From positions 1 through 57,559 of the IMG/VR virus record IMGVR_UViG_3300005538_000014: a stretch of DNA of 57,559 bases, one strand, 5' to 3'. Shown one piece after another: positions 4,277 to 53,062 of the stretch (position 1 is the first letter of the stretch; every line of letters begins with the position of its first letter). The stretch comes from a virus. The position numbers and the translations under genes are program-made. The notes beneath the pieces are model-generated. The model ran no database searches and was not told the origin of the DNA. It was given only the letters and a program-made list of their open reading frames with translations.

Positions 4277-4298
4277 GACGCCTTTATGGCGTCACGAC
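4277..4298 (-). promoter_or_regulatory. GTGACG-type late promoter of the lysis operon
   Basis: On the minus strand, GTCGTGACG ends exactly 13 bases before the endolysin ATG. The -10-like hexamer here is CATAAA. This is the one site where the last position is A instead of T, and where an AAAGG sits near the start codon. Confidence 0.6.
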
Positions 4299-5482: not shown

Positions 5483-5504
5483 GGCCCGAGCGTGCCGTCA
5501 CGTC
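5483..5504 (-). promoter_or_regulatory. GTGACG-type late promoter of the tail fibre gene
   Basis: The minus strand carries a doubled GTGACGTGACGG. The proximal GTGACG ends 13 bases before the fibre ATG, with -10-like CACGCT followed by six bases and then ATG. The distal copy contains the stop codon of the upstream gene. There is no Shine-Dalgarno sequence between the motif and the start. Confidence 0.65.
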
Positions 5505-28548: not shown

Positions 28549-29807
28549 GCCGCCAGGAGACTCCCTTGCGCGGTGTCACGGTCATACTTGCGGGCACCGA
28601 ACTCCACGCGCGCGGTCGCGATCTTCATATAGTCCCCATCACGCTCAATGCCGGTAAAGCGCAGCCCTGCGAGCATTGCGCCCTTGCCCGTGGAGCCACT
28701 CCCCATGAAGGGGTCGAGCACGATGCCGCCCGGAGGCGTCATAAGCCGGCAGAGGTAAGCCATGAGCGGCGTCGGCTTCACTGTCGGGTGATTGTTTCGG
28801 CGCTTGCGAGCCGCATTGAACCCTTCCCCGCCCTCTTCGATCACGTCGCCATTCGCCTCTTGCGACTGTGCGAGGTTCGAGCGTGCGAGCACCGCGTACG
28901 GCAGGTGTTCGCAGCCCTCCTCGCGATCCTGCTTTGACGCCTTGGCGCAATAGAAGAATCTGGCCGCGGAGCCGCCGAAATCATGAGGTGTCGCGGCCGC
29001 TCGCTTTTTGTACGCGCGGTAGACCGCCCCCGTGCTCGCGCTCGGCTCGTTACCATAGACAGGCGCTTGCTGGCCCGCGGCGGCCGGGAAGAGCGCCAGC
29101 ACCTCATCGCTGCCGTCGTGAATGAAATTGGCAGGCCAGCGCCCCTTCGGCGTCAGCACGGCTACATTCTCTTCGACGGACTTGGAATTGAAGCCCCACC
29201 CATCTTCCGGTCGCACATTGCGTGTGATCTCGCGGCCGACATCGCGCGCGTCCGCATCGGACACGGGCACGCGGCACCCATCGATCATAATGAACCCCGT
29301 GCCCCACTTGCGGATGTTCGACATGATGGTGCGCTCAGAAAGCGGCTTGCGCGCCCATACGATAGGCTCCCACGCGGGTTTGAGCGCGGTCCCACGCCCT
29401 TCGCCGGCAGAGTGGGATTTCGGCATGCCGGAGCCGTAGGCCCACGCAATTTGGTCGAGAATCTCGAACCCGGCATCCTCGATCGCGCACGCCATGCGGT
29501 GGTATCGGCGGGTTGCAGAGAACGCGACCAAGTTGGCACCGGGTTTCAGGATCCTCAGAACGGCGGCCCACGTTTCGGGCCGAAACGCGATGTCTCCGCC
29601 GTCCCACTGCTTTCCCATGAACCCGGCGCTCGCCCGCGCGAACGCTCCGTCCGTACCGAATTTCGCAGGAGCCGCGTTCGCGCCGCCGAACCGCTTGACA
29701 ATAGATGTCAAATGGTACGGCGGGTCCGTGACGCAGGAGTCAATCGAGTTTTCCGGCAGCAACGGCATGACATCCATGCAATCGCCGAGACGCAGATCAT
29801 ATCTCAT
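28545..29807 (-). CDS. Site-specific DNA (adenine-N6) methyltransferase, beta class
   Basis: 420 aa. Motif IV DPPY lies near the N-terminus (TDPPYHLTS, about 28-31) and the SAM-binding motif I near the C-terminus (VLDPFMGSGSTGKGAML), the beta-class circular order; HPTVKPTPLMAYL precedes motif I as usual. DPPY indicates N6-adenine methylation (or N4-cytosine less likely). The central 200 residues form a target recognition region. No cognate endonuclease gene is adjacent, so it is an orphan methyltransferase that probably protects phage DNA. Its start overlaps the stop of the next large gene. Confidence 0.88.
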   Translation of the reverse strand: MRYDLRLGDCMDVMPLLPENSIDSCVTDPPYHLTSIVKRFGGANAAPAKFGTDGAFARASAGFMGKQWDGGDIAFRPETWAAVLRILKPGANLVAFSATRRYHRMACAIEDAGFEILDQIAWAYGSGMPKSHSAGEGRGTALKPAWEPIVWARKPLSERTIMSNIRKWGTGFIMIDGCRVPVSDADARDVGREITRNVRPEDGWGFNSKSVEENVAVLTPKGRWPANFIHDGSDEVLALFPAAAGQQAPVYGNEPSASTGAVYRAYKKRAAATPHDFGGSAARFFYCAKASKQDREEGCEHLPYAVLARSNLAQSQEANGDVIEEGGEGFNAARKRRNNHPTVKPTPLMAYLCRLMTPPGGIVLDPFMGSGSTGKGAMLAGLRFTGIERDGDYMKIATARVEFGARKYDRDTAQGSLLAA

Positions 29808-34306: not shown

Positions 34307-34328
34307 GCGGTCAACGTACCGTCACGCG
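34307..34328 (-). promoter_or_regulatory. GTGACG-type late promoter of the 1500-aa gene
   Basis: Minus strand: GACGCGTGACG ends 13 bases before the ATG; -10-like TACGTT, then GACCGC and ATG. The element lies between the stop of the small gene 34329-34700 and this start. Confidence 0.65.
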
Positions 34329-34700
34329 TCAGCCGTCAATGTCTGGATCGAGCAGCATGAACCAATCGCCATCCGAGTCCGTCACATCGTTGCGACCCAT
34401 GTTGAACGTCGCGTTTTGGAGGTACTCAGTGGCCGCAGCCCTAAGCATACTTTCACCGGACGCGCTGATTTCCGCAGGGATGCGCGCGCTCACGGACGGA
34501 TCGTCGAAATCCCGCAGGATCGGCATTTGATGCTCATCGTAGAACCGCTTGAGCAGCCGCTTGACGAAAAACCAGTATTGGCCGAACAGACGATAGCGTT
34601 GCGGATCCTCAGAGAGGAGTTCGCGGACGTTCTTCGCAAACTCGCGCGCGTCAATCGGCTCAGGCGGCGAGTCGTTCATCGGATTCGTTGTCGTTTCCAT
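34329..34700 (-). CDS. Small hypothetical protein encoded between the two giant helicases
   Basis: 123 aa. The start overlaps the end of the 2006-aa gene by about 40 bases; an alternative ATG at 34679 would shorten it by seven residues. The central part (REFAKNVRELLSEDPQRYRLFGQYWFFVKRLLKRFYDE) is helical with many aromatic and charged residues. The C-terminus (ATEYLQNATFNMGRNDVTDSDGDWFML) is compact. I have seen similar small proteins next to large DarB-like genes, but no function is known to me. Confidence 0.6.
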   Translation of the reverse strand: METTTNPMNDSPPEPIDAREFAKNVRELLSEDPQRYRLFGQYWFFVKRLLKRFYDEHQMPILRDFDDPSVSARIPAEISASGESMLRAAATEYLQNATFNMGRNDVTDSDGDWFMLLDPDIDG

Positions 34701-37700
34701 CTTCTTCGTCCGTCGCGTCCGACTCGGCGTACTCTTTGACCGTCATGGCCGCCCTGTCGGCATTTTCATGTTTCATGTTCTCGTAGATCGAGCCAACGCG
34801 CGCACGCGCGATCTCGGGATGCTTCGCCGCGAGGTGTGCGATGGCAGACAGCACTTTGGGCGTCGGCGGCATCGAGAGCAGCGTACGAACCGCCTCTTGC
34901 GGATCGTTACTGGACGCCAGCATGGCCGCGGACAAATCGTGGTGCCCGGCCGAGTGCGACAGCATCGAAAGCGCCTCGCGCACCGTCATTTTTTCACCCT
35001 GCTTGATGCGGGTGTTATATGACCAGCTTCCGCCATAATAGCTGTACGACTTTTCATGGAACGAGCCGGAGAACATCTGTGCCGGATATTTCGGCTGCGT
35101 CGAGGCCCACCCCGTGCCGCCGCGCTGTGGAATCACGCTCGCCAGCGGCGCGTCGAGCTTGCCCTCGCGCTTCGCGTGCGCCCACAGGATGGCGAGACCT
35201 TTCTTGCTCCATCGCGGAACGCCGTCGTACCCAACCTCAACGGTGGGGACCACGGCCGAGATTGCTTCCGGCAGTGACTTGGCATGGCGCGCGGCCGCAT
35301 TCTGCGCGGCCTCAAATTGCGACTCCGCCTCTTTCTCGAATGTCGAGCCGAACACCGCCCGGCCAGCGTCAAGCCAGCGGTTGGACGACGCGCCGTACTC
35401 GCCAGGATACTTGGCTTTGAGCCGCGGCGTCTCGTTACGGCCGCGCTTGCCGCGCCGTCCATAGTCCGGCGTCGACTCAACCGCGAAATCCTTGGCGCGC
35501 TCATCGGCGATGAACGCAGCAATGGCCGCTTTCTTGTTCGCTTCGCTCGGCAGCATGAAATCATGCGTGTCGAGCATTTCCTTCGCCTCATAGCCGTTCG
35601 CGATAACGGCCGCGCCGCCGCCTTTCGGCACCAGAGGCAGTTTGTTCGCGCTCCAACGGTACGCTTTCAGGCCCTCTTTCAGGCGCGCTTGCAGAGAGTC
35701 ATAGTGCTTCTCCACGACCGACTCAGGGAGACGGCTGACCTCTTCCATCGTGGCGGCCTCGTCGACCTCGTTCTCCGCCTCGGCAGCAGCCTTGCGCTCG
35801 AACTCCTTTTTCTCTTCCTCTTCGTTGTAGTGGAAGGTTTTGGCATGAGCGAGTGTAGCCAGCTCGAACGGAATCGAGTTCCCCGTGTCGCCGTACGGCC
35901 GCGCAATGACCGGCGACTCCGAGTCTCCTGGATGGACGACCTTGATCACCCACTTGCCAGCGGCGTCATGCCCTTCGGGAATCTCGAAGCCGACGCCACG
36001 CTCCAAGGCAGCGCCAGTATGCGGATGCACAATGACGGGAGTGGTCGCGTCGAGGGCGTGCTTCGCGGTGAAATGCGGGTTGTTTTGCAGCGACTCTCGG
36101 GTGCGATCGATCTGGACCGCCAGCTTCTTGGCGCTGATCGTGTCCTTGTTTTTGAGCGCCGCGTAGCTCTGCTTCTTCTTTTGCAGCTTCACGAACTCGG
36201 CCGCAGCGTTTTCGCGTTGCTCGGCCTCGTACCGTTGAAGCGCGGCCGTCTTATCGGACTCGAACCGTGCGCGCGCCTCATCAGGATTGGTCGCGAGCAT
36301 GATCATCATTTCGTCGCGGGAAGGCTTGCCGCGTTCGAGGTTCTCGATGCGGTCGCCACCGTTCCAGAGCATGTCCTGCCAATCTTTCTTGGCCGAAACG
36401 GTCTGGTAGTAATAGCCGTCGAAGCTGCCCTTCGCGAGATAGGTGTGGATGCGGACCGCCTCCTTGAGGTTGCCTTGACGAAGACCGCGGCCGTTGCGTT
36501 GCTGAATCGCTGCCGGCGTCCATGGCAAGTCCATGTGGTGGATGTCCGTTGTGCCCTTTTGGAGGTTGACGCCCTCGCCCATCGTAGGAGTGTTGCCGAT
36601 GACGACCTTGATCTTGCCCGCGTTGAAATCGTCGCAAATGTTCTGCCGCTTGGCCGCAGATGGCGCGACTTGCGCGTTGATAATCGCAATCTGTTCTGCC
36701 GGAATGCCGCCCTTGATCAGTGCATCGCGCAGCTTGTCGTGAACCGCGAGGTCTTCCGCAAAGACCACCTGGCCGCCATCCTTTGCACCATTGACGATTT
36801 CTGTCACCGCGGCGTCGTACTTGGGAGAGATCGCGCCCTTGTATTTCTCCCCGTCATACATTTCGAGGTCCATCGCCGCGTTCATCATGCGGCGAATGAC
36901 GGAGAAGATGTGCTCCTCGCCTTTCGCGTCCCGCTTGCCAGCCGCTTCGCGCGCCTCTTCGCGCAACTGTTCGTAAACCGCTTGCTGTTGTGGCGTCATG
37001 TCGACGAGGTGCATGCGCTCATCGCGCTTCGGCAACACCAGCCCGACATCTTCCGCCGTCTTGCGGTCGATGTACTGGCGCATGATGTCGCGCAACTCAT
37101 CCATATTCTTGAAGCCAACCGTGACAAGACGGCGATAGATTCCGCCGTCAATCCCGAGCACGTTTTCCTCGCGGAACTCGCAGAAGCGGTCGAGGAACTC
37201 TTCGCTGTTGCGGATGCCAATTTTCTCGAATGCTTCCGGCGCTACATGGTGCAACATCGAGTAGACTTCGAGCGGGCTGTTTTTCGTCGGCGTCGCGGTC
37301 AGGAGATAGACATTGTTACCACCTTGCTGCGAGCGCACCCACTTGGCCTTGAAATCCATGTCGAGCGCGCGCTTGGACAGCCCGGAGCCGCCAAGGAACA
37401 GTGGCGATTGGCCGAACCTATCGCGAGCCTCGAAGAGGTTTTTATACGCATGCGCTTCGTCGACCATAAGCATGTCGACGCCGAGTTCGTTGAAATAGAT
37501 TGCGTCCGTACGCCTCTGGAAATCGCGCTTCGCGACAGATTGCGCGTGCTGCTCTTCCATCTTCTTTTCGAGCTTGGTACGCGCTTCCCAATCGCCGTGG
37601 TCGGCGCGGCGCTGCAATGCCTCTTCTTTTTCGGCGTTCAGCGACGCCTTGCGCTGCGCCCAAAAATCTTCCGCCGCGTACTGTGCCTTGATCGCAGGAT

Positions 37701-40680
37701 CGAGGTCGACGTCATTCAACGATTCGCGGCTGACAATGATGAAATCATAATCGTTCTGTGTGATGTCGTGCCATTTGCGGTTCCGCTCCGCGGCCGAGTC
37801 GTCCTTGCCTACCAGCTTCCCGCTTGCGTCGCGCGAGAACGTCGAGCCGATGGTCATGACCGAACAGCCAGGGAACCACGCTTGCGCTTCTGCCAGCCAG
37901 TTTGCGAGAACCGACTTTGGCACGCTGATAATCGGACGCTTCGCAATGCCAGAGGCTTTCGCGAGCCGTACAATGATCAAGCCGCGCGGAGTCTTGCCGA
38001 GGCCAACGTCCGCGGCGATGATACCCTTCTGCGCGTCAAGCGCCCACCGCACGCCTTCGTACTGGTATCCGTTCAGCTTGCGGTCGTCGGACAGGCCGGG
38101 AATCTCAATCGGCTCTTGGGAGTGAACCTTGTTGCGCCAGCCGCGGAATTTGCGATTGTAGAGGTTCTCCACCTCATCGCGGTATTTCGAGCCGCAGAGC
38201 CACGCGTGGAACTCCTCATTCCACTTGTTGACCTTCGGCCAATCCTCCTGCTTCACGCCGCGGCGGTTCAGGTATTTGTCCAGAAGATCAGAATTGAAAT
38301 CGCCGCCGTTGACGAGGAAGATTCCCTTCTCGAATTTCAGCGTGAGCGGCGGCCGGTCCGCGCGCCACGAGTCGCCGTTCGCGATCTTCTCGGCTCGCCG
38401 CTCGTTGAAGAATGCCGCGACGATATTGAGCGGAATGAAGCCGCTCGCCAGCGTGAAATCGACATCATCAAGCCCGCGCGGGTCGATAGCAGCTTCGAGC
38501 GCGCTCTTCTGCTTTTCGAGCTTCGCGCGATCTTCCGGTTTGAGTTCCGTGCCAGCCAGCGCGGCCGTGATCAGGTCGAATTTCGGCCAGAGGTTTCCGG
38601 TAAGGTACGTGTCCATCGTGGTCCACGTACCGTCAGGATTCATCGCAAAGTTCTGCGACGCGTAGAGGTGGTCAAGCGCCTGTTCGGCGTCGCCGCCAGA
38701 CCACGAGGCCGCTACTTGTTCCGGGGTGAAAGTGCCGAACTTTACCGCAAGGTGCTGCGCGGCTGCATCGAATGTGGATTCCAACTCGCGCGGCTTTACA
38801 CCGAGCACGGTATCCGAAAGCGTGCCATCCGGCTTCACAGCGCCGATGAGCCGGAAAAGCTGCTTGTCCGACTGTGCAGCAATCATAAGGTTCGGATTTT
38901 TCGACGGCACGCCGTACTGTTCGACGTAGGCTTTCACGCGGGCGGCGAGGTCCGGCACCTCTTTACCCTGCATCGCCAATTCGATGAGCGGCGCGAGTTC
39001 CTGTGCCGAGGTAATGCCTTGCGACTGCATCACCTCATCGAGGCGGTGCCAGCGGAGCGGGTTGCCCTCCAAGATGTACGTGACGCCATCGACAACCTTG
39101 GTATCGCCTCGCTCAGCGTGGTCGTACGGGCGTCGCAGGCTCGCGGCCTTCACCTTGGCCTGCATCTTTTCATCGCCGCCAACGGCGTTCAGGATGTCGA
39201 CGAGGCTGAAATCGCGATAGCCTGGCGTCTCCGGTTTGAACGCCGCGATTGCTTCCGGCACGCCGTCCATGGAGCCTTCAACGGTGATGTCGTTGCCCAT
39301 CCCGGCTTTCGCGCGCCAGCCCTCGGTCATGGTGCCAAGGATGTTCTTTGCGCCGCGGCCATAGAAATATGAACCGGACAGATACTCGTCGTCCCACACG
39401 CCGAGCTTTTGCAGCACGTCCCGCGGCACCACCATGAGCGCCTGTGCCACGTCCTCTGGACGCTTTTTGAAGAACACGAGGTCTGTGACGACTTGCGTGT
39501 GTGAGTGCTTGAACGCCGTGTTCGGCATGCGGATCGCGCCGACGAAATCGGCTTTGCGGAGGAGCCGCTCGCGCAGGGCACGATTGTTCTTGCCGTCGAG
39601 GACGCCGGTCGGAACGATCATCGCGACCATGCCTCCCGGCTTGGTCTTATCGATGGCGGTGTCCAGAAAGTACCCTTCCGCATTCGGAAGGTTCGGTTTG
39701 TCCTCTTTGATCAAAGCGCCACGGAGGCCGAACGGCGCGTTGCCAATTACCGCATCGAATTGTCGCGTGTCGCGGATCGCGAAATCTTCAAGGCTCTCGC
39801 TCTGGATTTCATCGCTCGGGTGCAGAATGGCCGCGATTTCAGAACTGACCGGATCAATTTCGACACCAACGGCATGCACGCCGGCTGGCTTCGTCGCCAA
39901 GAACACTCCCGTCGCACAACTCGGCTCCAAGATTTCCGCGCCCTCGGGAAGGCCCGCATTGCGAAGCACGTACCAGGCCGCGGCCGCGACCTTTGGATCG
40001 GTGTAGAACTCGTTGAGGCTGTCACCGCAGCCACCGTTGCCGCTGTACTGCGACAACTGCCGACGAACTTGCGCGGTGAACTCTTGATGGTTTCGCAGGA
40101 TCCCGATGCACTTGTCATTGATCTCGCGTCGCTTCGATTCTGTCGTGCCAGCGGGCACGCCCCACGCTGGCACGTCCGCAGGATTAAACGGTTCGTTGAA
40201 ATCGATGGCAGCGAGAACATCGCGCGCGTACTTGGCCGCGACAGGAGACGCCGACGAATTACCGATCATTCCCGGCCGCGGCGGGTTTTCGTGCGCCTCG
40301 ATCGCCTCCTTGAGCGACTCCTTGTCGCCATCCTTGCCAAGTTGCTCAATGAGCGCGAGTTCGGATTGGAGAGGCTCGGCCGTAACTGGCTTGCCGTTGT
40401 GCGGATTCTTCGGGCGCTCTGGAATTTTGCGCTTTGGCTCTTTCTTCTCCGGCGCGGCGGCGGCCGGACGCGAGAACAGGTCCGGCTCCTCTTTCTTTGC
40501 GCGCTTCTCCGGCGCTGGCTCGGGCTTTGCTACCGGCTTCGGCTTCGCTGGCTCTTGCGGGCGCACGCGACGAATGCCGAACGTGGGCTTGCGAACGACG
40601 CCCTCTCGCGTGGTGGAACCGGCGATTGGGACGAGTTTTTCAAAGAGGCCGATCTGCTCGGCTTTCAGGACGATCAGCAT
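34660..40680 (-). CDS. DarB-like giant antirestriction protein: N6-methyltransferase plus SNF2-like helicase
   Basis: 2006 aa. N-terminal domain (MLIVLKAEQIGLFEKLVPIAG) of the polyvalent-protein type, then a disordered Pro/Lys region. An adenine methyltransferase follows with motif I EPSCATGVFLA (about 251-262) and a variant motif IV GNAPFG (313-318; usual form N-P-P-F/Y). An SF2 helicase occupies about 870-1450: GLGKT (about 890), DEAH (about 1074) and QRNGRGLRQGN (about 1395). The combination matches phage P1 DarB, an injected antirestriction protein. A C-terminal low-complexity part follows. Starts 13 bases after its promoter element. Confidence 0.82.
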   Translation of the reverse strand: MLIVLKAEQIGLFEKLVPIAGSTTREGVVRKPTFGIRRVRPQEPAKPKPVAKPEPAPEKRAKKEEPDLFSRPAAAAPEKKEPKRKIPERPKNPHNGKPVTAEPLQSELALIEQLGKDGDKESLKEAIEAHENPPRPGMIGNSSASPVAAKYARDVLAAIDFNEPFNPADVPAWGVPAGTTESKRREINDKCIGILRNHQEFTAQVRRQLSQYSGNGGCGDSLNEFYTDPKVAAAAWYVLRNAGLPEGAEILEPSCATGVFLATKPAGVHAVGVEIDPVSSEIAAILHPSDEIQSESLEDFAIRDTRQFDAVIGNAPFGLRGALIKEDKPNLPNAEGYFLDTAIDKTKPGGMVAMIVPTGVLDGKNNRALRERLLRKADFVGAIRMPNTAFKHSHTQVVTDLVFFKKRPEDVAQALMVVPRDVLQKLGVWDDEYLSGSYFYGRGAKNILGTMTEGWRAKAGMGNDITVEGSMDGVPEAIAAFKPETPGYRDFSLVDILNAVGGDEKMQAKVKAASLRRPYDHAERGDTKVVDGVTYILEGNPLRWHRLDEVMQSQGITSAQELAPLIELAMQGKEVPDLAARVKAYVEQYGVPSKNPNLMIAAQSDKQLFRLIGAVKPDGTLSDTVLGVKPRELESTFDAAAQHLAVKFGTFTPEQVAASWSGGDAEQALDHLYASQNFAMNPDGTWTTMDTYLTGNLWPKFDLITAALAGTELKPEDRAKLEKQKSALEAAIDPRGLDDVDFTLASGFIPLNIVAAFFNERRAEKIANGDSWRADRPPLTLKFEKGIFLVNGGDFNSDLLDKYLNRRGVKQEDWPKVNKWNEEFHAWLCGSKYRDEVENLYNRKFRGWRNKVHSQEPIEIPGLSDDRKLNGYQYEGVRWALDAQKGIIAADVGLGKTPRGLIIVRLAKASGIAKRPIISVPKSVLANWLAEAQAWFPGCSVMTIGSTFSRDASGKLVGKDDSAAERNRKWHDITQNDYDFIIVSRESLNDVDLDPAIKAQYAAEDFWAQRKASLNAEKEEALQRRADHGDWEARTKLEKKMEEQHAQSVAKRDFQRRTDAIYFNELGVDMLMVDEAHAYKNLFEARDRFGQSPLFLGGSGLSKRALDMDFKAKWVRSQQGGNNVYLLTATPTKNSPLEVYSMLHHVAPEAFEKIGIRNSEEFLDRFCEFREENVLGIDGGIYRRLVTVGFKNMDELRDIMRQYIDRKTAEDVGLVLPKRDERMHLVDMTPQQQAVYEQLREEAREAAGKRDAKGEEHIFSVIRRMMNAAMDLEMYDGEKYKGAISPKYDAAVTEIVNGAKDGGQVVFAEDLAVHDKLRDALIKGGIPAEQIAIINAQVAPSAAKRQNICDDFNAGKIKVVIGNTPTMGEGVNLQKGTTDIHHMDLPWTPAAIQQRNGRGLRQGNLKEAVRIHTYLAKGSFDGYYYQTVSAKKDWQDMLWNGGDRIENLERGKPSRDEMMIMLATNPDEARARFESDKTAALQRYEAEQRENAAAEFVKLQKKKQSYAALKNKDTISAKKLAVQIDRTRESLQNNPHFTAKHALDATTPVIVHPHTGAALERGVGFEIPEGHDAAGKWVIKVVHPGDSESPVIARPYGDTGNSIPFELATLAHAKTFHYNEEEEKKEFERKAAAEAENEVDEAATMEEVSRLPESVVEKHYDSLQARLKEGLKAYRWSANKLPLVPKGGGAAVIANGYEAKEMLDTHDFMLPSEANKKAAIAAFIADERAKDFAVESTPDYGRRGKRGRNETPRLKAKYPGEYGASSNRWLDAGRAVFGSTFEKEAESQFEAAQNAAARHAKSLPEAISAVVPTVEVGYDGVPRWSKKGLAILWAHAKREGKLDAPLASVIPQRGGTGWASTQPKYPAQMFSGSFHEKSYSYYGGSWSYNTRIKQGEKMTVREALSMLSHSAGHHDLSAAMLASSNDPQEAVRTLLSMPPTPKVLSAIAHLAAKHPEIARARVGSIYENMKHENADRAAMTVKEYAESDATDEEDGNDNESDERLAA

Positions 40681-40702
40681 GACGCGACTATCCCGTCACG
40701 TC
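40681..40702 (-). promoter_or_regulatory. GTGACG-type late promoter of the DarB-like gene
   Basis: Minus strand: GACGTGACG ends 13 bases before ATG; -10-like GATAGT (G in first position), then CGCGTC and ATG. The next gene upstream ends 46 bases before the ATG. Confidence 0.62.
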
Positions 40703-40726
40703 ATGCCGATAGCCTTACCGTTCTTC

Positions 40727-40966
40727 TTACTTTTTCGGGGCTGGCTTCTGCGATGCGGCGTACTGCCGATTGATTTCCCCGACAATTTCGTTGGCGTCGC
40801 GGGCCGACAGCGCCGTGCTGTTCTGGACCGAGCGAACGACGCCAACCCAATCCTGCACTGGCAGGGTAACCGTCAGTGTGGGCGGAGGAGGCGGCGTCGT
40901 AGGAGCGTCGGCCAGGGCTGGCACGGCCAGCGATGCGAGCACAACAAATGCAAGAAACGACCTCAT
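40727..40966 (-). CDS. Small secreted (periplasmic) protein
   Basis: 79 aa. MRSFLAFVVLASLAVPALADAP is a Sec signal peptide with cleavage after ALA. The mature part (about 60 aa) begins Pro-rich, followed by TVTLPVQDWVGVVRSVQNSTALSARDANEIVGEINRQYA. An AAGGAAAG site precedes the ATG. It is encoded directly downstream of the 1338-aa fibre, which also has a signal peptide. Both may act in the host envelope. No family is recognised; a fibre chaperone or envelope modifier are possibilities only. Confidence 0.65.
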   Translation of the reverse strand: MRSFLAFVVLASLAVPALADAPTTPPPPPTLTVTLPVQDWVGVVRSVQNSTALSARDANEIVGEINRQYAASQKPAPKK

Positions 40967-41034
40967 TGCGTGGCACTTTCCTTTTCGATTGAGCGTCCCA
41001 TTTACGCCACCCCCCTGCCGACAGCCTGACTGTT

Positions 41035-44000
41035 TTACCGGCAGATGACGTTCAGATTGTAAACGATGGACGCCGTGAGCGCCGACGATGTGTTGCTGAT
41101 TGAAACTCCGGTCGTGGTGGACGACACGTCGAACTTTGAAATCGCGGTTGCCGTGTTCCCACCAACGGCAGCAAAGACGCAAACCGGCGCAGTGCTGAAC
41201 GTACCGTTGTTGAAGGCCAGCGTGAAGATCGTTGACGAGGCAACCGGACTCGAACCCTCGGTGAAATTGATATTGAACGCCTGGTCGTCGCCAGTGACGG
41301 AATTGCACGTCGGCGACGTTCCCGCCGATGTACCGAACGTGACGTTGCTGCACGCTTGCGCGGTGCCGCCCTCAATTTCGTGCCCGGTGTGAGTCAACGT
41401 GGTGAACGTGCCGGCCGCCGCCGCCGCGCCACCAATCGCAGGCGGTGACGCAAGGTAGGACGAGAAGCCTGACCCGGACACGGTGCCCGACGCAGACAGG
41501 CTTGTGAATGAGCCAGCCGCGGGCGTGGTGCCCCCAATGATCGAGCCGTTGATGCCGCCAGACCCCCACGTACCCGAATCCGTGCCAGTGAATGTGCCGG
41601 ATTCGAGAACCATGCCAGTCGACTTGACGCGCAGGATTTCGAGTGTTGCCCCCGCGTTATCGGCGCACAGCGAAATGTCGCCCGGCGTATCGCCACAGAT
41701 TCCGGCATGAACGTCAGTGCGGTCAGGGAAGAAGGTCGCTTGGGTCGACGACATCCCAACAGCGCCGTCGAAGGTAGGCCCGTGCGCCGCCTGAGCCTGA
41801 ATGACGTTCGCGCCAGTGACGGACTTATTATTGAAGGAAGAAGATGCGCCGAGCGTAAACCCTGACGAACCCCACGAACCGCCATCCGCGAACGTAACCG
41901 TTCCCGTCATGGTGCCGCCCGAAAGGTGCAACAGCGGCGAGCACGTTACAGCGAGTGTGTTGGCGGTCGAGCAGTCGCCAGAGAGGTTTCCGTTCGTGAT
42001 CGAGCTTGCACCCGAGAACGCTGCAAGCTCGCCAGAGGCGGGAGTGCCGGTAGTGGTTACTGTACCGCTTCCGCCGCCGCCAGTCCCAACGGCAACGCCC
42101 TGGACGTAAATGGCCTGCGCGTTGATGGATCCCGCGCCTTTATCGCCGCCCGTAGGCGAGCCAACCGTTACACCGCCATCGTTGTGTTGGCAGAGGCCAT
42201 CGGCAATGGTCGTAGACCCGGATGGTACAGTGGCAAGACACGCTTCGCCCGGCCAACTGGTCGAGCTAAAAGCTCCCTCTGCGTACAGATGCAGAGCGGC
42301 CGCGAGTCCCGTGTGACCCGTCGTTGTGTCGTATTGACCGGCACCGTTGATGTCAGCAAGCAAGTCGCCAGATTGAACGGCCGTTGGGGATGCAACCGTA
42401 CCGTCAGCCCGCGTGCCGCTAAAAAATGCGGTCGCGGCATAGGCGTCCATTTCCACCCGCGATGGAGACCCTGCCTGGCTTGCACCCTGCAACAACGCCC
42501 CACTCTTGGCCGTTGGGAGATTTTGGCTGCCGAGCGTCACCGTCCCGTTACCTGCCGGCGCGAGGTTGATGCTCCCCACAATGCTGCCATGCGTGTTCGA
42601 CGTGGACTTTACGGACAAGTCACCGTAATCAACCACTGTGCTCGTCGAGTCCTCGCCAAGGCCCTGTACGTCCAACATTGTCCCGCTGGTAAGGGCGCTA
42701 CCGGCCTTGATGACGCCAGTGCCAAACTGATTGGTCCAATTCACGAAGGCGTCGGTAAAGTTTCCGGAGAACCTTGAGCCATCGACAAAGCTGCCCCCGA
42801 ACACGACACTGGCGGAGCTTGACACCGTGCCGGTGAGCGGGAGCGTCAGGTTCACAAGGGTTGAACCCGTGATTGAGCCGCACTCGGATCGCTGATGCGA
42901 CGCGTCGCACTGATAGACGGAGGCAACCGTCTCACCAGTCGGGATTCCGGCCACGCCGGTTACAGTCTGCCCGGTATTGATATTCTTGCCGAGCGTGAAG
43001 AGCATGTACGATTGGCCGGACGGCGCGGAGACCGATGGCGAGTACGTCAGCGAGCCAGCAACGGCGTCAAAGCAGCCGATGGTTTCGCCGCCATCGCACT
43101 TGAAGGCTTCATCGAAATAGCCGAACTCTCCGCCAGCGGCAGTGACCCCCGGAATTGGAGACATCGTGGCGGCGATGATTCCGTTGATGATGTGCGCCGG
43201 GTTCTGGCCGACATATTGCGCGTTCGCGCCGCCCGGCCTCATCCTTACAATGTACCCAAACGACGCCGGGTTCGCGCTCGGGCCACCCTCGGCGACGATG
43301 AGGTCTTCGACAAGGCGGCTCAGGCCGGTATCCTGATCTTCGGCAACAACGTCCTCTTCGACGCCGACGCACGCGCCGGCTGTAAGAGAGGGAAGCCCGG
43401 TCTGATCGTTGCACAGGATATTGCCACCCTCGATAATGGCCGTGCTCGGCGCGTTCTTAAACACGTAGCCATTTGCGCCGTTACAGGTCTGAGCCGAGGA
43501 GGTTTGGGTGGTGTAAACCTGGCACGTTCCTTGGTTCGCGATAGAGGACGACTGCGGCGTGCTGTTGCTCGCGTTGATGATGTTGATCGGCTCGTTCGAG
43601 TAGAGCGGCGCAATCGTCGCGAGCGTAAGGGTGAGTTGGCCCGTAGTGTAGGCCGCCACGGTGTCACCGTTGGGAATGCCGGGGCCGTACACCGCCTGAC
43701 CGACAGCAATGTTCACGTTCGCAGTAATTCCGAACGGTCCGGTAGTGCCAGTCGCGACATAGCCGTTCGGCTTGACGGTTACACCCTTTCCCACGGTGAT
43801 CGTCGACCAGAGACACTCATCGAGAACACCGGACCCGCCAGTGTAGTAATCCTGGCGGTCGCAAACCATGTTCGGCAAGCCACCGGACACAGACTCCGTG
43901 ATCCAGCTTCCGAACGGATTGGTGAACCACGACCGAGAGGTGTCGCCGGACGCCTTGGCACCAATACCAGCGAAATCGCCGTTCGAGTTCTTGACGTGCA

Positions 44001-45051
44001 GCGCGCCAGTGCCGTCGAGGTACAGATTTCCGACAGCGGTTGTCGGGACGGTCAGGCCGCCGACCATGGTGAGGCCGCTCGCCGAACTCCATGTCGAGCC
44101 GTCCGGCATCGCAATCGCGCCCGTGAATGACGGCGAATTGAGTGGCGCGAGTGCGGAGAGAGCAACAGTCGAATCGACGACGTTGCCGTTCGCGTCGTAC
44201 TTTGGAACGTCTCCGGTCGTGGTCGTGCCAGTGGCAAGCTGAACCTTGCTGCCATTGCCCTGTGCGCCAGTGACGCCCGAGAGGATGGAGTCGATGTTCG
44301 CGACGAAAGACGCCGCGATCCCACTGTCAACGACGTTGCCGCTTGCGTCGTACTTGGAGAGGTCGCCGGACGTAGGCGTGCCGCTACCAAGCTGAATCTT
44401 CGGACCATTGCCCTGCGCTCCGGTGATGGCCGAGAGGTTGACCGCACCGCTATTCAGGGAGCCGACACGAACAGTGCATCCCGAATTTGTGACATCGCCA
44501 AGCAACGTCGGAATCTGTCCACACCCAAGCAGGCCGCCGAGACCGGCGATGTTTGGCTGCGCCCACGCCAAGGAGCCATCGCCATTGATGCCGGTAACGA
44601 ACTCGTTTGGAGGGGCCGATTGAAGGAACACGCCACCAAGGGTCGTTGTGCCCGGAGGGGATGGAGGCGCAGCGGTCTGAGGCGCGAAGGCGAGCGTACC
44701 ATCGCTGTTCACTCCGGTGACAACTTGGCCCGGAGGCGCGGATTGCGCGTAAACGCCGCCACGCGTGCTCGCGCTCGGCGGGTTCACGCTGGACGGCCGC
44801 ATCACATAAGCGTTGTTGCCAGCGTCATGAATGCAGTTCACGCCGTCGTCGACACAGCCCGCGCCGTAATAGGCGTAATAGACGCCAGCAATGTTGACGA
44901 GCGGCGTCTCGTTATAATTGTGCGTTCGGAATGCCGCGATCGATGGGATAACGTATTGCGGCTGAATTTGCGCGACGGCGGCCGACGCAAGAAAACATGC
45001 CGCAATGGCGAGGGCGGGGCGCGTGAAAGCGCGGCGGAGCGTTTCGAGCAT
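41035..45051 (-). CDS. Large repetitive tail fibre/adhesin-like protein with N-terminal signal peptide
   Basis: 1338 aa. MLETLRRAFTRPALAIAACFLASAAVA-Q looks like a Sec signal peptide, unusual for a phage fibre. Two repeat pairs follow: GGVYAQSAPPGQVVTGVNSD against GGVFLQSAPPNEFVTGINGD, and GAQGNGPKIQLGSGTPTSGD against GAQGNGSKVQLATGTTTTGD. LAPLNSPSFTGAIAMPDGSTW is a fibre module shared with the 4301-5482 gene. The rest is Ser/Thr/Gly/Asn-rich beta-structure. No enzymatic motif is seen. It starts 13 bases after a promoter element. It may be a receptor-binding fibre or an exported surface protein. Confidence 0.7.
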   Translation of the reverse strand: MLETLRRAFTRPALAIAACFLASAAVAQIQPQYVIPSIAAFRTHNYNETPLVNIAGVYYAYYGAGCVDDGVNCIHDAGNNAYVMRPSSVNPPSASTRGGVYAQSAPPGQVVTGVNSDGTLAFAPQTAAPPSPPGTTTLGGVFLQSAPPNEFVTGINGDGSLAWAQPNIAGLGGLLGCGQIPTLLGDVTNSGCTVRVGSLNSGAVNLSAITGAQGNGPKIQLGSGTPTSGDLSKYDASGNVVDSGIAASFVANIDSILSGVTGAQGNGSKVQLATGTTTTGDVPKYDANGNVVDSTVALSALAPLNSPSFTGAIAMPDGSTWSSASGLTMVGGLTVPTTAVGNLYLDGTGALHVKNSNGDFAGIGAKASGDTSRSWFTNPFGSWITESVSGGLPNMVCDRQDYYTGGSGVLDECLWSTITVGKGVTVKPNGYVATGTTGPFGITANVNIAVGQAVYGPGIPNGDTVAAYTTGQLTLTLATIAPLYSNEPINIINASNSTPQSSSIANQGTCQVYTTQTSSAQTCNGANGYVFKNAPSTAIIEGGNILCNDQTGLPSLTAGACVGVEEDVVAEDQDTGLSRLVEDLIVAEGGPSANPASFGYIVRMRPGGANAQYVGQNPAHIINGIIAATMSPIPGVTAAGGEFGYFDEAFKCDGGETIGCFDAVAGSLTYSPSVSAPSGQSYMLFTLGKNINTGQTVTGVAGIPTGETVASVYQCDASHQRSECGSITGSTLVNLTLPLTGTVSSSASVVFGGSFVDGSRFSGNFTDAFVNWTNQFGTGVIKAGSALTSGTMLDVQGLGEDSTSTVVDYGDLSVKSTSNTHGSIVGSINLAPAGNGTVTLGSQNLPTAKSGALLQGASQAGSPSRVEMDAYAATAFFSGTRADGTVASPTAVQSGDLLADINGAGQYDTTTGHTGLAAALHLYAEGAFSSTSWPGEACLATVPSGSTTIADGLCQHNDGGVTVGSPTGGDKGAGSINAQAIYVQGVAVGTGGGGSGTVTTTGTPASGELAAFSGASSITNGNLSGDCSTANTLAVTCSPLLHLSGGTMTGTVTFADGGSWGSSGFTLGASSSFNNKSVTGANVIQAQAAHGPTFDGAVGMSSTQATFFPDRTDVHAGICGDTPGDISLCADNAGATLEILRVKSTGMVLESGTFTGTDSGTWGSGGINGSIIGGTTPAAGSFTSLSASGTVSGSGFSSYLASPPAIGGAAAAAGTFTTLTHTGHEIEGGTAQACSNVTFGTSAGTSPTCNSVTGDDQAFNINFTEGSSPVASSTIFTLAFNNGTFSTAPVCVFAAVGGNTATAISKFDVSSTTTGVSISNTSSALTASIVYNLNVICR

Positions 45052-48507: not shown

Positions 48508-50322
48508 CTACAAGTGGGCCTTCTCATATTTTGCCCTTGCTTCGCGATACATTCGTTGCTGAACGTCAACAACCCGCTGGTATTCCGCCTCCGCATCGGC
48601 GGGCCACGGTTTGTCATCGTGGTCCTTGCCGTACTTTGCCTCCAAATCGCGCTCAATCTCGTAGAACTTGTGCGCCTCGTGCTTGGTCTGCACCATGGAT
48701 TTCACGTTCACCTGGATTTCGGCGATCACGCCGTTTTCCATGCGCGCGAACATCTGAATGTCGCTGTACCCCGCCTTGGTTGGCTTCTGAAAGCGGTCCT
48801 TGAACGGCTTGGCGAGCACCATGCCATTTTTCTTCAACCGCTCGATGGTGTGATACACCTCTTCGAGACTGTCGACCGCAATCGTGCAGCGCACTGTGTC
48901 CATCAGCCGGGACCAGTCGCCCTTGTAATCGGTGTTCACCTTTTGCGTTGCGCGATCCTCTTTTTTGAGGGGCGCGATGAAGAGCATGCTTCCCGGAGTA
49001 TTCCACTCCTCTGGCGAGACATCTTCCGGGGATTTGTTCATCCGGCGAATGCCAAGCTGAGTGCAGACCCCCTTGGGACTGGCGAGCCATTTGGTGAGGT
49101 GTTCGAGCGCGGGCTTTGACGCCTTATAGAGCGCATCCTTAGTGGCATGAGGCTGGACCACCACGGTTGGCAACTCTTTCCAACCGTACCGCTTCGCCGC
49201 GGTGTATGTGCGGTTACCGTCGATGATGGTATAGGTGCCGTCGGCGTTCGGGGTGACCTTGATGGGTGCGCGCCTGGCAATCTTGCCGTGGTACGACGCC
49301 ATCATCAGCTTCGGCGCGTTTTCCCCTCCGTGCTTGTTCTCTTCGTCGGTTTTTGAGGAGCGCAGCTTGTCGAGCGCAATGATGCTCGTGCCGCCGTCCA
49401 TCTTGAAGAACCGCTCGTGCTCTTCCGGCATGGACTCCGGCGCGGGAAGCACGCCTTTGACGCGCTTGCTGTACGCCTTGTCGTCCTCGCCATGCAGTCG
49501 CGGCGGATAGGCCGGAGGTTTCGGCGGGGCCTTGCTCGCGCCCGCGTGTTGCTTTGAGCTATTGTTATCCGGCTTTGCGTTACCTGCCGGCTTCTTCACC
49601 GGGCCGCGCTGCAATTCGTTCCAGTACACCTCATGCTTCTTGCCGGAGGCATCGCGAACGGTAGCGCCATCCTGGCCGACATCGGTTACCTCGCCAGAGC
49701 CAGCGGTCTCACCAATTTTGAATTGCACGGAGTCGCCAATCTTTGCCGGCGTCTTTTGCTGCGGCTTCGCCTTCTCCGGCCTCGCCTCGCGCTCTGGCGC
49801 TTTGACCTTCGGAGTCGTGCGCTTCCATCGCTTTGTTTGATGGCCTTGCTTGTCGGTGACATCCTGCAACGACAGGCCGGGCCGGTTTTTGATGGCCTTG
49901 ATAACGTCGATGGGCACGGTGCCGAACACCAGCGCAATCGGCGCGATCGACTTGCGGACCGGCCCCTCTTCGCCGCTGTAAACGTCGGGGTCAGGATCCT
50001 CGATATAGCGCCGCCGTCCGCTCGGATCCGCGGCGATGAAGCCGTCCTCGCCCTGATCGACGATAGTGTACCCTTGTTGCACCTTCACGCGATGACCGAG
50101 AACTTGCTCCCATCGCACCCGGTATCGCTTCTGGTCGTGCGCGCAATCAATCACGCATCCGTCGCGGCCGTGCGCCATAACCTTGCCATGCACAGGCCCA
50201 TGCTTCGGATGGCGAAAGTACACCTCATCGCCGCGCTCCACGTCGGGAGTCGGCAACTCCTCCTCGGTTTCCCGCTTCGCGCCGGGCTTACCGAGTTTAT
50301 TGATGTTATTTGCCGAGCGCAT
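48508..50322 (-). CDS. KOW-like / ParB-like / RelA-SpoT-like fusion protein
   Basis: 604 aa, its start overlapping the portal gene by 17 bases. Two SH3/KOW-like barrels (about 28-80 and 192-240). A ParB/Srx-like domain (about 310-390) has TPNADGTYTIIDGNRTYTAAKRYG. A RelA/SpoT nucleotidyltransferase-like domain (about 450-560) has DWSRLMDTVRCTIAVDSLEEVY, DRFQKPTKAGYSDIQMF and AEIQVNVKSM. The key Glu of E-I-Q (E535) and the Tyr of GY-D are present. It could make or transfer pyrophosphate groups to nucleotides or tRNA. The position among virion genes suggests delivery with DNA. Confidence 0.8.
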   Translation of the reverse strand: MRSANNINKLGKPGAKRETEEELPTPDVERGDEVYFRHPKHGPVHGKVMAHGRDGCVIDCAHDQKRYRVRWEQVLGHRVKVQQGYTIVDQGEDGFIAADPSGRRRYIEDPDPDVYSGEEGPVRKSIAPIALVFGTVPIDVIKAIKNRPGLSLQDVTDKQGHQTKRWKRTTPKVKAPEREARPEKAKPQQKTPAKIGDSVQFKIGETAGSGEVTDVGQDGATVRDASGKKHEVYWNELQRGPVKKPAGNAKPDNNSSKQHAGASKAPPKPPAYPPRLHGEDDKAYSKRVKGVLPAPESMPEEHERFFKMDGGTSIIALDKLRSSKTDEENKHGGENAPKLMMASYHGKIARRAPIKVTPNADGTYTIIDGNRTYTAAKRYGWKELPTVVVQPHATKDALYKASKPALEHLTKWLASPKGVCTQLGIRRMNKSPEDVSPEEWNTPGSMLFIAPLKKEDRATQKVNTDYKGDWSRLMDTVRCTIAVDSLEEVYHTIERLKKNGMVLAKPFKDRFQKPTKAGYSDIQMFARMENGVIAEIQVNVKSMVQTKHEAHKFYEIERDLEAKYGKDHDDKPWPADAEAEYQRVVDVQQRMYREARAKYEKAHL

Positions 50323-52090
50323 AAATCGGCTTCAACCCGAAGCGCGACGGATCAATGGCCTTGGCGAAACTGTCGTCCGACTGGCCGAAATCGCCCTCGC
50401 GCTTCTCTGGATTGCCCCCTTGTTCTTGCCCCGGCTCACCTTGATCCTGTCCGGGCGCGGGCGGTCCGCCAGGCTGATCACCCTGCAACGGCTCGCCCGG
50501 ATTGCCGTCGTCCGGCATTCCAAAGTCCGCTTGCTGCGCTTGCATTTCTTGCTGCTTGAATTGCAGCCATGGAGAGATAAGCGCCGGATTGAGCGGGCAA
50601 TCGCCCATCACGTCGTCGACCTCCTCATCGCCCTGCCGACGCCGTGCCTCATTCCATGTTTGCGTCAGCTTCCGCATTTCAAACCGCTTGTCCGCGTCCT
50701 CACCGTCGAGGCCAACGAACCTGAGCGAGTATTGCGGCGAGAACGGACGGATGAAGAAATCGGTGTACTCGCACGCGAAATGCGAGAGCAGCGGTTCGAG
50801 ACCTTTATCGTTCGAGGAGGTGATCTTCTGTTCGGTGTCGCTGCCAGACAGTGGCGCGCGGCCGGAGGTGAAACTTTCCATCGACACCTCTTCCGGCGCA
50901 ATCCCGTAGATGGCACACGCGAGAGAGGTGAGAAGACTCATCCATTTGCCGAACGCCATTTCCGTCATTTGCGCGCCGACCTCAAGGAAATTGGCCTTTG
51001 CGTCGGCGTCGCGCGATGTCAGGATCGGCAGATTGTGGACATTCTGGATTCCGCGCACCATCGCGACCCACAGGCGCTTGAACGCCGCGAGGTCGGCGTT
51101 GTCGTAATTTCCGACAAGCTGCAGAATGCCGCGAGGGATTGAGTTCTTCGTGAAATACGACCCGTTGTACTCCAATGTATTCAGGAGGTGCGTGACGACG
51201 CGGATGAGCATTTCCGTTTCGCCATAGCCGTATCCGCACGCGAGCACGTCTGTACGCGGGTTGCGAACCTCGTACGTCAGATCGTAATGGGTGTACGCCG
51301 TGCGGATGTTCCCCTGAATAACTTGCAGGGCGAACACCTCGTCGTCGCCGTCATAGCCCTCTTCCGTGCAGAGCCGCACGGTCGCGCCGTCGACGGCGTA
51401 AATGCCATCCAGGCCAAGCGACTTGTCCGACTTGAATTGTGTTTCGACTGGCGCGGCGTCCATCGCGAGGGAATCGCGGATGCGCTTCGCCATGAATTGC
51501 GGGAAGGTGTCACGCTTCAAGAGCTTGCGCTTGCGCGGGTCGTCCTCCCACCCGCAATTCAGAACGAACTTTTGCAGAAGGTCGATGGACTGCTTGTTCT
51601 CGGCATTGAGTTCGTGATTCTTGTCAATGTGGTGAATGACGAAGCCGGGAGCTTCCGGTTCAAGTTGCGGCCGGCAGAAGCGCAGCACTTGCCGGATGCG
51701 CGTCAGGACGATGGCGTTCAGGATCGGCGTTTGATCCACCATTGTACGCATCGAATCGAAATTGAGCAGGCCCGGCCGATCCCAATACTGCCCTTGCGCC
51801 GCAATCTGGAAATCGTCGAGCATCACCGATTGCATGCCGCCCTTGCGGCTTTGCGACGGGTATTTGACCTGGTTGATCGACTTGTTGAACGCCTCGGCTG
51901 CAATCTCTTGCTGGATGAAATCGATCACTGGCTGAATTTCAGCGCGCGGAATGAGCGCGGACTCAAGTGTACTTTTGTTGATTTCGGCTTGCGCGTCGTA
52001 GCGTTCCGTGAATGGCGCGCGCGGGCTGAATGCGACCGACCAAACGCCGGGAGCCGCGGTAGCAGCGGCCGTTTCCTTTTTGCGAGCCAT
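50306..52090 (-). CDS. Portal protein
   Basis: 594 aa. N-terminal and central portal-type pattern: LLNFDSMRTMVDQTPILNAIVLTRIRQVLRF, GIYAVDGATVRLCTEEGYDG, YGYGETEMLIRVVTHLLNTLEYNGSYFTKNSIPRGIL, FKRLWVAMVRGIQNVHNLPI, EVSMESFTSGRAPL and DKGLEPLLSHFACEYTDFFI. The C-terminus is Pro/Gln/Glu/Gly-rich and disordered. It forms the dodecameric ring for DNA passage. Terminases lie upstream and head genes downstream. The start is 14 bases after the promoter element at 52105-52110. This is a confident assignment. Confidence 0.88.
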   Translation of the reverse strand: MARKKETAAATAAPGVWSVAFSPRAPFTERYDAQAEINKSTLESALIPRAEIQPVIDFIQQEIAAEAFNKSINQVKYPSQSRKGGMQSVMLDDFQIAAQGQYWDRPGLLNFDSMRTMVDQTPILNAIVLTRIRQVLRFCRPQLEPEAPGFVIHHIDKNHELNAENKQSIDLLQKFVLNCGWEDDPRKRKLLKRDTFPQFMAKRIRDSLAMDAAPVETQFKSDKSLGLDGIYAVDGATVRLCTEEGYDGDDEVFALQVIQGNIRTAYTHYDLTYEVRNPRTDVLACGYGYGETEMLIRVVTHLLNTLEYNGSYFTKNSIPRGILQLVGNYDNADLAAFKRLWVAMVRGIQNVHNLPILTSRDADAKANFLEVGAQMTEMAFGKWMSLLTSLACAIYGIAPEEVSMESFTSGRAPLSGSDTEQKITSSNDKGLEPLLSHFACEYTDFFIRPFSPQYSLRFVGLDGEDADKRFEMRKLTQTWNEARRRQGDEEVDDVMGDCPLNPALISPWLQFKQQEMQAQQADFGMPDDGNPGEPLQGDQPGGPPAPGQDQGEPGQEQGGNPEKREGDFGQSDDSFAKAIDPSRFGLKPIYALGK

Positions 52091-52113
52091 GCGCGCGACT
52101 ATGCCGTCACGAC
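52091..52113 (-). promoter_or_regulatory. GTGACG-type late promoter of the portal gene
   Basis: Minus strand: GTCGTGACG ends 14 bases before the portal ATG; -10-like CATAGT, then CGCGCGC and ATG. It restarts transcription after the structured RNA region. Confidence 0.65.
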
Positions 52114-52187
52114 AAAACGGCCCGGCGAGGAATCAACCTCACCGAGCCGTTCCGCGAGCGAGGCCCCCTGCCACGCTCTTCCCCTTC

Positions 52188-52248
52188 GCCAGCCACACCC
52201 TTACAGGGACACCTAACCGCCATGCGGCTTCGGGTTTGAGTGGCTGGC
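52188..52248 (-). ncRNA. Structured three-way-junction RNA element downstream of the tRNA-like pair
   Basis: A 9-bp outer stem, GCCAGCCAC (52240-52248) with GTGGCTGGC (52188-52196) as read on the minus strand, encloses two small hairpins: CCGC-ATG-GCGG (52217-52227) and CCCT-GTA-AGGG (52198-52208). No ORF covers the region. It may belong to the tRNA-like RNA upstream or be a separate regulatory structure before the portal gene. Seen by eye, not folded computationally. Confidence 0.45.
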
Positions 52249-52257
52249 TCCCCCCTG

Positions 52258-52336
52258 AGTATTTGTGCGGCGCTCTACCGGCTGAGCTACCCGGCCCGTA
52301 GGCCGGAGCGGGACTCGAACCCGCGACCTCCGCTTT
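52258..52336 (-). ncRNA. Permuted tRNA-like element 2 (T-arm, closed acceptor stem, D-arm)
   Basis: Minus-strand order: GCGG (52330-52333), AGGTC, T-arm GCGGG-TTCGAGT-CCCGC (52308-52324), acceptor 3' strand TCCGGCC (52301-52307), tetraloop TACG, acceptor 5' strand GGCCGGG (52290-52296), TA, D-arm GCTC-AGCCGGTA-GAGC, then CCGC (52267-52270). TCCGGCC pairs over seven bases with GGCCGGG, and GCGG pairs with CCGC as an anticodon-type stem. The order is that of a circularly permuted tRNA. No U33 or CCA is evident, so a tRNA mimic is also possible. Confidence 0.6.
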
Positions 52337-52425
52337 GCGCTGCTCTACCAGACTGAGCTACGGACAGATGCCTATAGCTGCATCCGCCGACTGGATTTGA
52401 ACCAGTGACCTCGCGCTTCCGTACC
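52337..52425 (-). ncRNA. Permuted tRNA-like element 1 (anticodon ACG-like loop, T-arm first, D-arm second)
   Basis: Minus-strand order: GTACGGA loop-like segment with T33 and ACG (Arg) at 52420-52422, GCGC (52413-52416), AGGTC, T-arm ACTGG-TTCAAAT-CCAGT (52390-52406), acceptor 3' strand CGGCGGA (52383-52389), a hairpin loop closed by TGC/GCA, acceptor 5' strand TCTGTCCG (52361-52368, one bulged T), TA, D-arm GCTC-AGTCTGGTA-GAGC, then GCGC (52337-52340). All stems pair only if the 3' half precedes the 5' half. Starts 6 bases after the ssb stop codon and is linked to element 2 by AAA. Confidence 0.6.
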
Positions 52426-52430
52426 GTTCG

Positions 52431-52883
52431 TTAGAACGGAATCTCGTCGTCCTCCGGGGTGAATTGCTGTGTGCGCGATTGCGTCGCGCCGGACGAACGG
52501 TTGCCGCCGCCGCTTTCGCTGCCGCCGTTGCTGTCCTTGCCGCCGAGGAGAACCAGCTTGGAGTTAAAGCCGTTCAGCACGATCTCGGTCGTGTACCGAT
52601 CAACGCCGTCCTTGTCGGTCCACTTGCGCGTCTGCAACTGGCCTTCGACGTAAACCTTGGAGCCTTTCTTGAGGTACTTTTCGGCGATACCCGCGAGGCC
52701 GTCATTGAAGATCACGACCCGGTGCCACTCGGTTTTCTCTTTGCGCTCGCCTGACGACTTATCTTTCCAGGACTCCGACGTGGCGAGGCTCAAATTGACG
52801 ATTGTGCCGCCCGACTGCGTTTTCCGCGCCTCGGGATCCTGACCGAGGTTTCCGATCAGCATTACCTTGTTCAACGAAGACAT
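52431..52883 (-). CDS. ssb: Single-stranded DNA-binding protein
   Basis: 150 aa. The OB-fold is clear ([21 protein letters not shown]... [28 protein letters not shown]... [19 protein letters not shown]... TTEIVL). The C-terminus is a flexible Gly/Ser/Gln linker and the acidic tip DDEIPF that recruits partner proteins. Size and tip are those of bacterial SSB, so it could interact with host replication proteins. The ATG is preceded by AAGGAAAA, about 23 bases after a conserved hairpin. A promoter element lies 160 bases upstream. Followed directly by the tRNA-like RNAs. Confidence 0.93.
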
Positions 52884-53040: not shown

Positions 53041-53062
53041 GACTTGACCTTGCCGTCACGAC
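53041..53062 (-). promoter_or_regulatory. GTGACG-type late promoter of the ssb transcript (leadered)
   Basis: Minus strand: GTCGTGACG, -10-like CAAGGT and a predicted start A at 53040. It sits just after the sliding-clamp stop (53076) and gives a leader of about 157 bases to ssb that contains the hairpin at 52907-52947; the remaining leader sequence has no ORF of note. Confidence 0.55.

Follow-up and report, generated by a model that had tools for sequence, protein, structure and literature searches.

Tandem YrlA-type tRNA-like modules downstream of a phage ssb gene, a predicted tRNA-mimic RNA

We uncovered two tandem tRNA-like modules in a 57,559-base viral fragment (the window, i.e., the whole stretch of DNA that was analysed), which lie on the minus strand (52416-52267) directly 3′ of the stop codon of the ssb gene and on the same strand as it. 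Each module presents its elements in the order T-arm, closed acceptor hairpin and D-arm, and is closed by 4 bp. The same permuted order is already known from the tRNA-like module of the bacterial Y RNAs (YrlA), a kinship that went unrecognised in the original prediction; what is unusual is the tandem form, lacking the Y stem and with no Ro gene found in the fragment. We favor, with moderate confidence, the reading that the element is a predicted tandem, Ro-independent YrlA-type tRNA-mimic RNA located towards the 3′ end of the ssb transcript, acting as a decoy or scaffold of the tRNA elbow. The structural part of this reading is much firmer than the decoy or scaffold function, which we infer. 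More tentatively, such RNAs might form an undescribed, Ro-free phage class of multi-module tRNA mimics, both tandem and nested, whose two sealed elbows would be deployed as decoys or scaffolds against host proteins that bind or cleave tRNA.

Many phages carry tRNA genes, and how these act against tRNA-targeting defences is under active study. A copy of the tRNA elbow that is neither charged nor decoding would make a clean decoy or scaffold and, if true, this would broaden the Y RNA family past its association with Ro. The fragment itself derives from a phage whose tail is contractile; recognised in it were the sheath, baseplate, portal, terminase, ssb and DNA polymerase processivity factor. 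The record is probably incomplete because the genomes of its portal relatives (e.g., Bordetella phage PHB04 and Pseudomonas phage Jeremy) span 86-96 kb. It also features three very large adjacent open reading frames on the minus strand (29804-45051; 1500, 2006 and 1338 aa), the first of which matches phage helicase and, weakly, methyltransferase families.

Architecture of the two modules

All features described here are on the minus strand, and both modules were delineated by direct reading and folding. Module 1 (52337..52416) is closed by the stem GCGC/GCGC (52416-52413/52340-52337), within which follow the T-arm ACTGG-TTCAAAT-CCAGT (52406-52390), the acceptor-like hairpin CGGCGGAUGC-AGCUAUAG-GCAUCUGUCCG (52389-52361; 10 bp with one bulged U and an 8-nt loop) and the D-arm GCTC-AGTCTGGTA-GAGC (52358-52342). 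A linker AAA (52334..52336) leads to module 2 (52267..52333), in which the closing stem GCGG/CCGC (52333-52330/52270-52267) encloses the T-arm GCGGG-TTCGAGT-CCCGC (52324-52308), the 7-bp acceptor-like hairpin UCCGGCC-UACG-GGCCGGG (52307-52290) and the D-arm GCTC-AGCCGGTA-GAGC (52287-52272). The loop of this hairpin (52300-52297) is a UNCG-type tetraloop in a C(UACG)G context. In each module the 4-bp closing stem occupies the place of the anticodon stem of a tRNA. Folding 52258-52425 to minimum energy yields both closing stems and the exact permuted cloverleaf of module 1; the permuted fold of module 2 (-33.8 kcal/mol) lies 3.3 above the minimum, a competing fold being better in silico under a model that ignores tertiary contacts.

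Direct reading and folding thus bear out the two tandem permuted units of the original prediction, with their closing stems, their TTCAAAT and TTCGAGT T-loops and, in the second unit, the TCCGGCC/GGCCGGG pairing (7 of 7) capped by TACG. The single bulge that it placed in the acceptor pairing of the first unit is also there, but the helix is longer than supposed, with 10 bp and an 8-nt loop. What it had likened to a tRNA-Arg anticodon loop (T-ACG-GA) is actually the UACG tetraloop of the acceptor hairpin of module 2.

A nucleotide search of phages with this region returned mostly ordinary tandem tRNAs. ARAGORN, for its part, reports no tRNA gene at the element, and the middle copy, when read as a tRNA, obtains 27.8 bits with the Rfam tRNA model, below its threshold. 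As the original prediction held, this copy fails as a normal tRNA: only two of its seven acceptor positions pair. A canonical tRNA, with a normal-order cloverleaf, a 7-bp acceptor and an anticodon arm, is therefore out. Consecutive tRNAs of the ordinary kind supply a null: the 3′ acceptor strand of the first matches the 5′ strand of the second at all seven positions in just 10 of 783 pairs (1.3%); the cross-pairing of module 2 is 7/7 against that rate, and an artefact of tandem tRNAs was rejected on this null.

Kinship with YrlA

A covariance-model search, which had been proposed along with the original prediction, matches both units to Rfam YrlA (RF02553), the best RNA family match for each: module 2 with 45.6 bits (E=2.3e-8) and module 1 with 28.1 bits (E=0.0027). 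These matches cover the tRNA-like core only (model positions 23-88 and 27-81), leaving positions 1-22 and 89-114 unmatched. Both scores lie under the Rfam gathering score (69 bits), and the model also gives weak, sub-threshold matches in control genomes; hence, the bit scores alone are not decisive. Given that ARAGORN is silent here and the Rfam scores fall below threshold, elements of this type are likely under-annotated.

The tRNA-like domain of YrlA, with its D, T and acceptor arms, has been described (PMC8394870), and mycobacteriophages are reported to carry Y RNAs (PMC12282133, citing Chen et al. 2014). Thus, the permuted order by itself is already known. In the literature that we compared, outside of which stand the primary Y RNA papers of Chen et al. 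2014 and Sim & Wolin 2018, we found no description of the tandem form.

Recurrence and covariation of the tandem form

The sole near-identical contig, L004, matches with 100% identity over 12.7 kb and offers no variation, and the element is absent from the portal relatives L005-L010. In L010, the closest relative by synteny, ordinary tRNAs but no module lie near ssb, and all eight named relatives that share the portal lack a YrlA match; hence, this phage group does not conserve the element. With the identical contig invariant and the portal relatives lacking the element, covariation was assessed in tandem elements of unrelated phages. These came from a search of IMG/VR with a pattern consisting of a D-arm end, a T-arm too close to it for an anticodon arm to fit and then a D-arm, with no pairing required. 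The full listing comprises 40 stretches, many of them tandem permuted modules; the loci L604, L602, L284, L307, L301/L577/L597, L295, L600, L333 and L303/L591 are unrelated in sequence outside the arms, and an earlier pattern yielded a further locus, L239.

The original prediction hung on the acceptor-like pairs covarying among relatives, and in these sequence-unrelated elements they do so strongly. Across 24 modules of tandem loci, chosen without regard to pairing and with L600_m2 and L239_m2 left out, 87.5% of acceptor pairs are formed as against 53.5% +/- 3.9 with shuffled partners, in an alignment without the hairpin apices that bears on the outer five pairs only. The covariation score for the same modules is 0.891 versus 0.263, and none of 500 shuffles reaches either figure. 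Including the two omitted modules (26 in all) gives 87.7% versus 52.8% +/- 3.9, and a second, fresh and complete pattern set (12 stretches, two contig pairs being near-duplicates) gives 86.7% versus 53.7% +/- 4.7. Closing stems of at least 4 bp occur in 19 of 22 modules (mean 3.73 bp versus 1.69 shuffled), L593 and L601, which do not close in such fashion, being left out of this count. Moreover, 11 of 14 anticodon-less D-to-T junctions (T-arm upstream, D-arm downstream) are flanked on either side by hairpins of 5 bp or more. The acceptor-like helices of the class are 4-11 bp long. Judged from its sequence, the window element fits this class of two permuted modules a few nucleotides apart, with covarying acceptor hairpins and closing stems.

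The locus nearest to it in linker and 3′ sequence is L284, which sits among Mu-like head genes, between the protease and the major head protein. An unannotated tandem element is also present in Microbacterium phage BAjuniper (OQ938582, about 41282-41429), between tRNA-Pro and tRNA-Asn; this being a phage cultured on a laboratory host, the question of function is directly testable there.

Several other arrangements were encountered alongside the tandem form. In a nested form (viral contigs L240, L319, L585, L586, L588, L594 and others), a normal-order tRNA-like RNA has a permuted module in place of its anticodon loop, such that two tRNA-like bodies are joined at their anticodon stems; in nine such elements the outer acceptors pair at 6.33 of 7 positions versus 3.53 +/- 0.50 shuffled, and the anticodon-type stems are mostly 4-5 bp. 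Some Bacteroidota genomes (L456, L476, L508, L529, L565, L566 and L569) also display two tandem permuted modules, the second of which is followed by an apparently complete 5-bp/7-nt anticodon arm with a varying anticodon; the flanks of L476, L508 and L569 are similar, and a larger conserved RNA is possible there. Further, there are many phage contigs, such as L228, L229, L231, L234, L270, L271, L292, L322, L324 and L330, with normal-order tRNA-like genes that have matched acceptor stems and little or no anticodon arm.

The Ro gene and the basal stem

A gene for a TROVE domain protein (Ro/rsr) was sought in the 57.6-kb window, a fragment whose relatives span 86-96 kb, and none was found; neither was a Ro gene found in the portal relatives. 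TROVE is encoded in none of 13 distinct tandem records (window included) versus 16 of 27 viral records with one UNCG-capped module (Fisher p=3e-4), a comparison that is uneven in that many records are fragments, the single-module contigs are longer on average and the groups were hand-assembled from different patterns. The complete BAjuniper genome is among the tandem records without TROVE, and in several of the 16 TROVE-bearing single-module records the gene is close to the module. L601, in which TROVE is present, two hairpins are not formed and there is a long basal stem, was left out of the tandem group; with it included the figure would be 1 of 14. In Mycobacterium phage Rey (L609, about 57986-58066), the complete genome of which is without TROVE, tRNA-Asn is directly followed by one closed permuted module.

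A basal stem was likewise sought in the flanks of the window element and not found, their complementarity being weaker than that of shuffles (z=+1.5) as against negative values, down to -5.2, for most single-module controls. Hence, the element is YrlA-like in its module, yet fails the basal-stem feature of YrlA. A few other tandem elements (L602, L604 and L333) do possess such a stem, a long one that surrounds the two modules.

Transcription context

The ssb gene (52431..52883, minus strand; phrog_44, E=1.1e-51) is immediately upstream of the element and in the same orientation, and the portal protein gene (50306..52090, minus strand; PHROG portal families, best E=1e-29) lies downstream. Between the modules and the portal gene there is first a branched hairpin, GCCAGCCAC...GTGGCTGGC (52188..52248, minus strand; -31.5 kcal/mol, z=-1.8), with a 9-bp basal stem and two inner hairpins, and then a probable terminator (52113..52150, minus strand), a 14-bp hairpin followed by TTTT (-33.8 kcal/mol, z=-6.1, reached in 0 of 200 shuffles). 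The latter, which is unlisted by a consensus terminator scan wanting at least 5 T, probably ends the transcript of ssb and the element. We found no sigma-70-like promoter. There is a candidate phage transcription signal, GTCGTGACG, which occurs upstream of ssb (53054..53062) and again beyond the probable terminator, ahead of the portal gene (52105..52113); the window holds seven copies, at 4290, 14997, 18712, 28264, 45065, 52105 and 53054, all on the minus strand, versus 1.4 expected by chance. The simplest inference from this layout is that a single transcript would hold ssb and the double module and end before the portal gene.

Proposed function and alternative explanations

We propose that ssb would be co-transcribed with the double module and that the D- and T-loops of each module, the canonical sequences of which are present in both, would dock as they do in tRNA and YrlA, giving two sealed tRNA elbows per RNA. 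Since the acceptor ends are sealed by hairpin loops and there is no anticodon, the RNA should, on general grounds, be unable to be charged or to decode; it would therefore work by tying up elbow-recognising proteins. The elbows might be competitive decoys for tRNA-targeting nucleases of the host defence or for tRNA-modifying enzymes or, alternatively, a bivalent scaffold for PNPase or another RNase, with the two modules providing avidity or bringing two proteins together. Precedents come from YrlA: TruB and DusA use its tRNA-like domain as a substrate, the domain contacts PNPase in the RYPER complex (PMC8394870), and competitive inhibition of an anticodon nuclease by this domain has been suggested as possible (PMC7790460). 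Phage tRNAs can counter tRNA-targeting defences (PMC10264068, PMC11555353). Of the two fates offered by the original prediction, that of a tRNA mimic or decoy is the one that fits.

An alternative that we regard as unlikely is that of a genuine Y RNA that tethers Ro to PNPase, with the Ro/Rsr coming from the missing part of the genome or from the host; the module duplication would then be a variation, and the Ro-binding stem would be short or otherwise supplied. YrlA being the best Rfam family match for both modules, the frequent presence of TROVE in single-module phage loci with the same core, the long basal stems of L602, L604, L333 and the related TROVE-bearing L601, and the incompleteness of the window genome all speak for this. 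However, the flanks in the window form no basal stem and leave the ends of the Rfam model unmatched, and TROVE is missing from the window and 12 other tandem records, that of the complete BAjuniper genome included.

We give a low probability to a role in RNA processing or stability, wherein tRNA-like folds in the ssb 3′ region would block exonucleases or provide an entry for RNase P or Z, thereby separating the ssb message from downstream RNA. The position of the element within a co-directional gene cluster, between ssb and portal, would suit such a role, as would the placement of the L284 homologue among head genes and the strong hairpin and possible terminator that come next. Yet the acceptor ends, sealed by short loops, leave RNase P or Z little space to work as they do on a tRNA, a plain hairpin would stabilise the mRNA just as well, and BAjuniper and several other elements lie in tRNA clusters rather than behind an mRNA.

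It is very improbable that the element is a decaying, functionless remnant of a tandem tRNA array: tRNA genes do fill the same ssb-portal region in L010, and the middle copy scores weakly as a tRNA, but decay does not make complementary acceptor hairpins and closing stems, full cross-pairing is rare among ordinary consecutive tRNAs, and the helices covary in independent elements. We give hardly any credence to permuted tRNA genes of the red algal kind, the halves of which would be cut and re-joined into working tRNAs, as the original prediction had also entertained, since the T-half before the D-half, the canonical loops, the paired acceptor strands and the RtcB ligase gene near the portal of the related phage PHB04 are set against helices of varied length across the class (10 bp plus a bulge in unit 1, and not 7 bp), short loops mostly without CCA (here AGCUAUAG and UACG), the lack of an anticodon, 4-bp closing stems that run into unrelated flanks with no common anticodon position, and a search of the window that found no RtcB gene. 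The gene in PHB04 (L094) lies at 4963-6156, a few kb from its portal gene.

Comparison with known systems

The permuted tRNA genes of the red alga Cyanidioschyzon have the 3′ half ahead of the 5′ half. The phage element shares this order, but has no anticodon, has acceptor helices other than 7 bp, is mostly without CCA and shows no recognised processing sites. To tmRNA and the GOLLD-type large RNAs of phage tRNA arrays it is alike as a phage-carried tRNA-related RNA; however, neither has an Rfam match in the window region, nor at the gathering level in the identical contig L004. The single YrlA-like viral modules (e.g., L116, L144 and L140) have the same module, often with a UUCG acceptor tetraloop, but only one of it, mostly inside a basal stem and, in 16 of the 27 records, with TROVE. 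The BAjuniper element, like that of the window, consists of two tandem permuted modules, and the complete BAjuniper genome is without TROVE; it differs in that it is situated inside a tRNA cluster rather than behind ssb and is unrelated in sequence to the window element outside the arms. Finally, YrlA and the phage element have in common the permuted module of T-arm, acceptor hairpin and D-arm with canonical loops; unlike YrlA, the phage element lacks the Ro-binding basal stem, with no Ro gene found in the 57.6-kb fragment, and carries two such modules in tandem, each closed by 4 bp.
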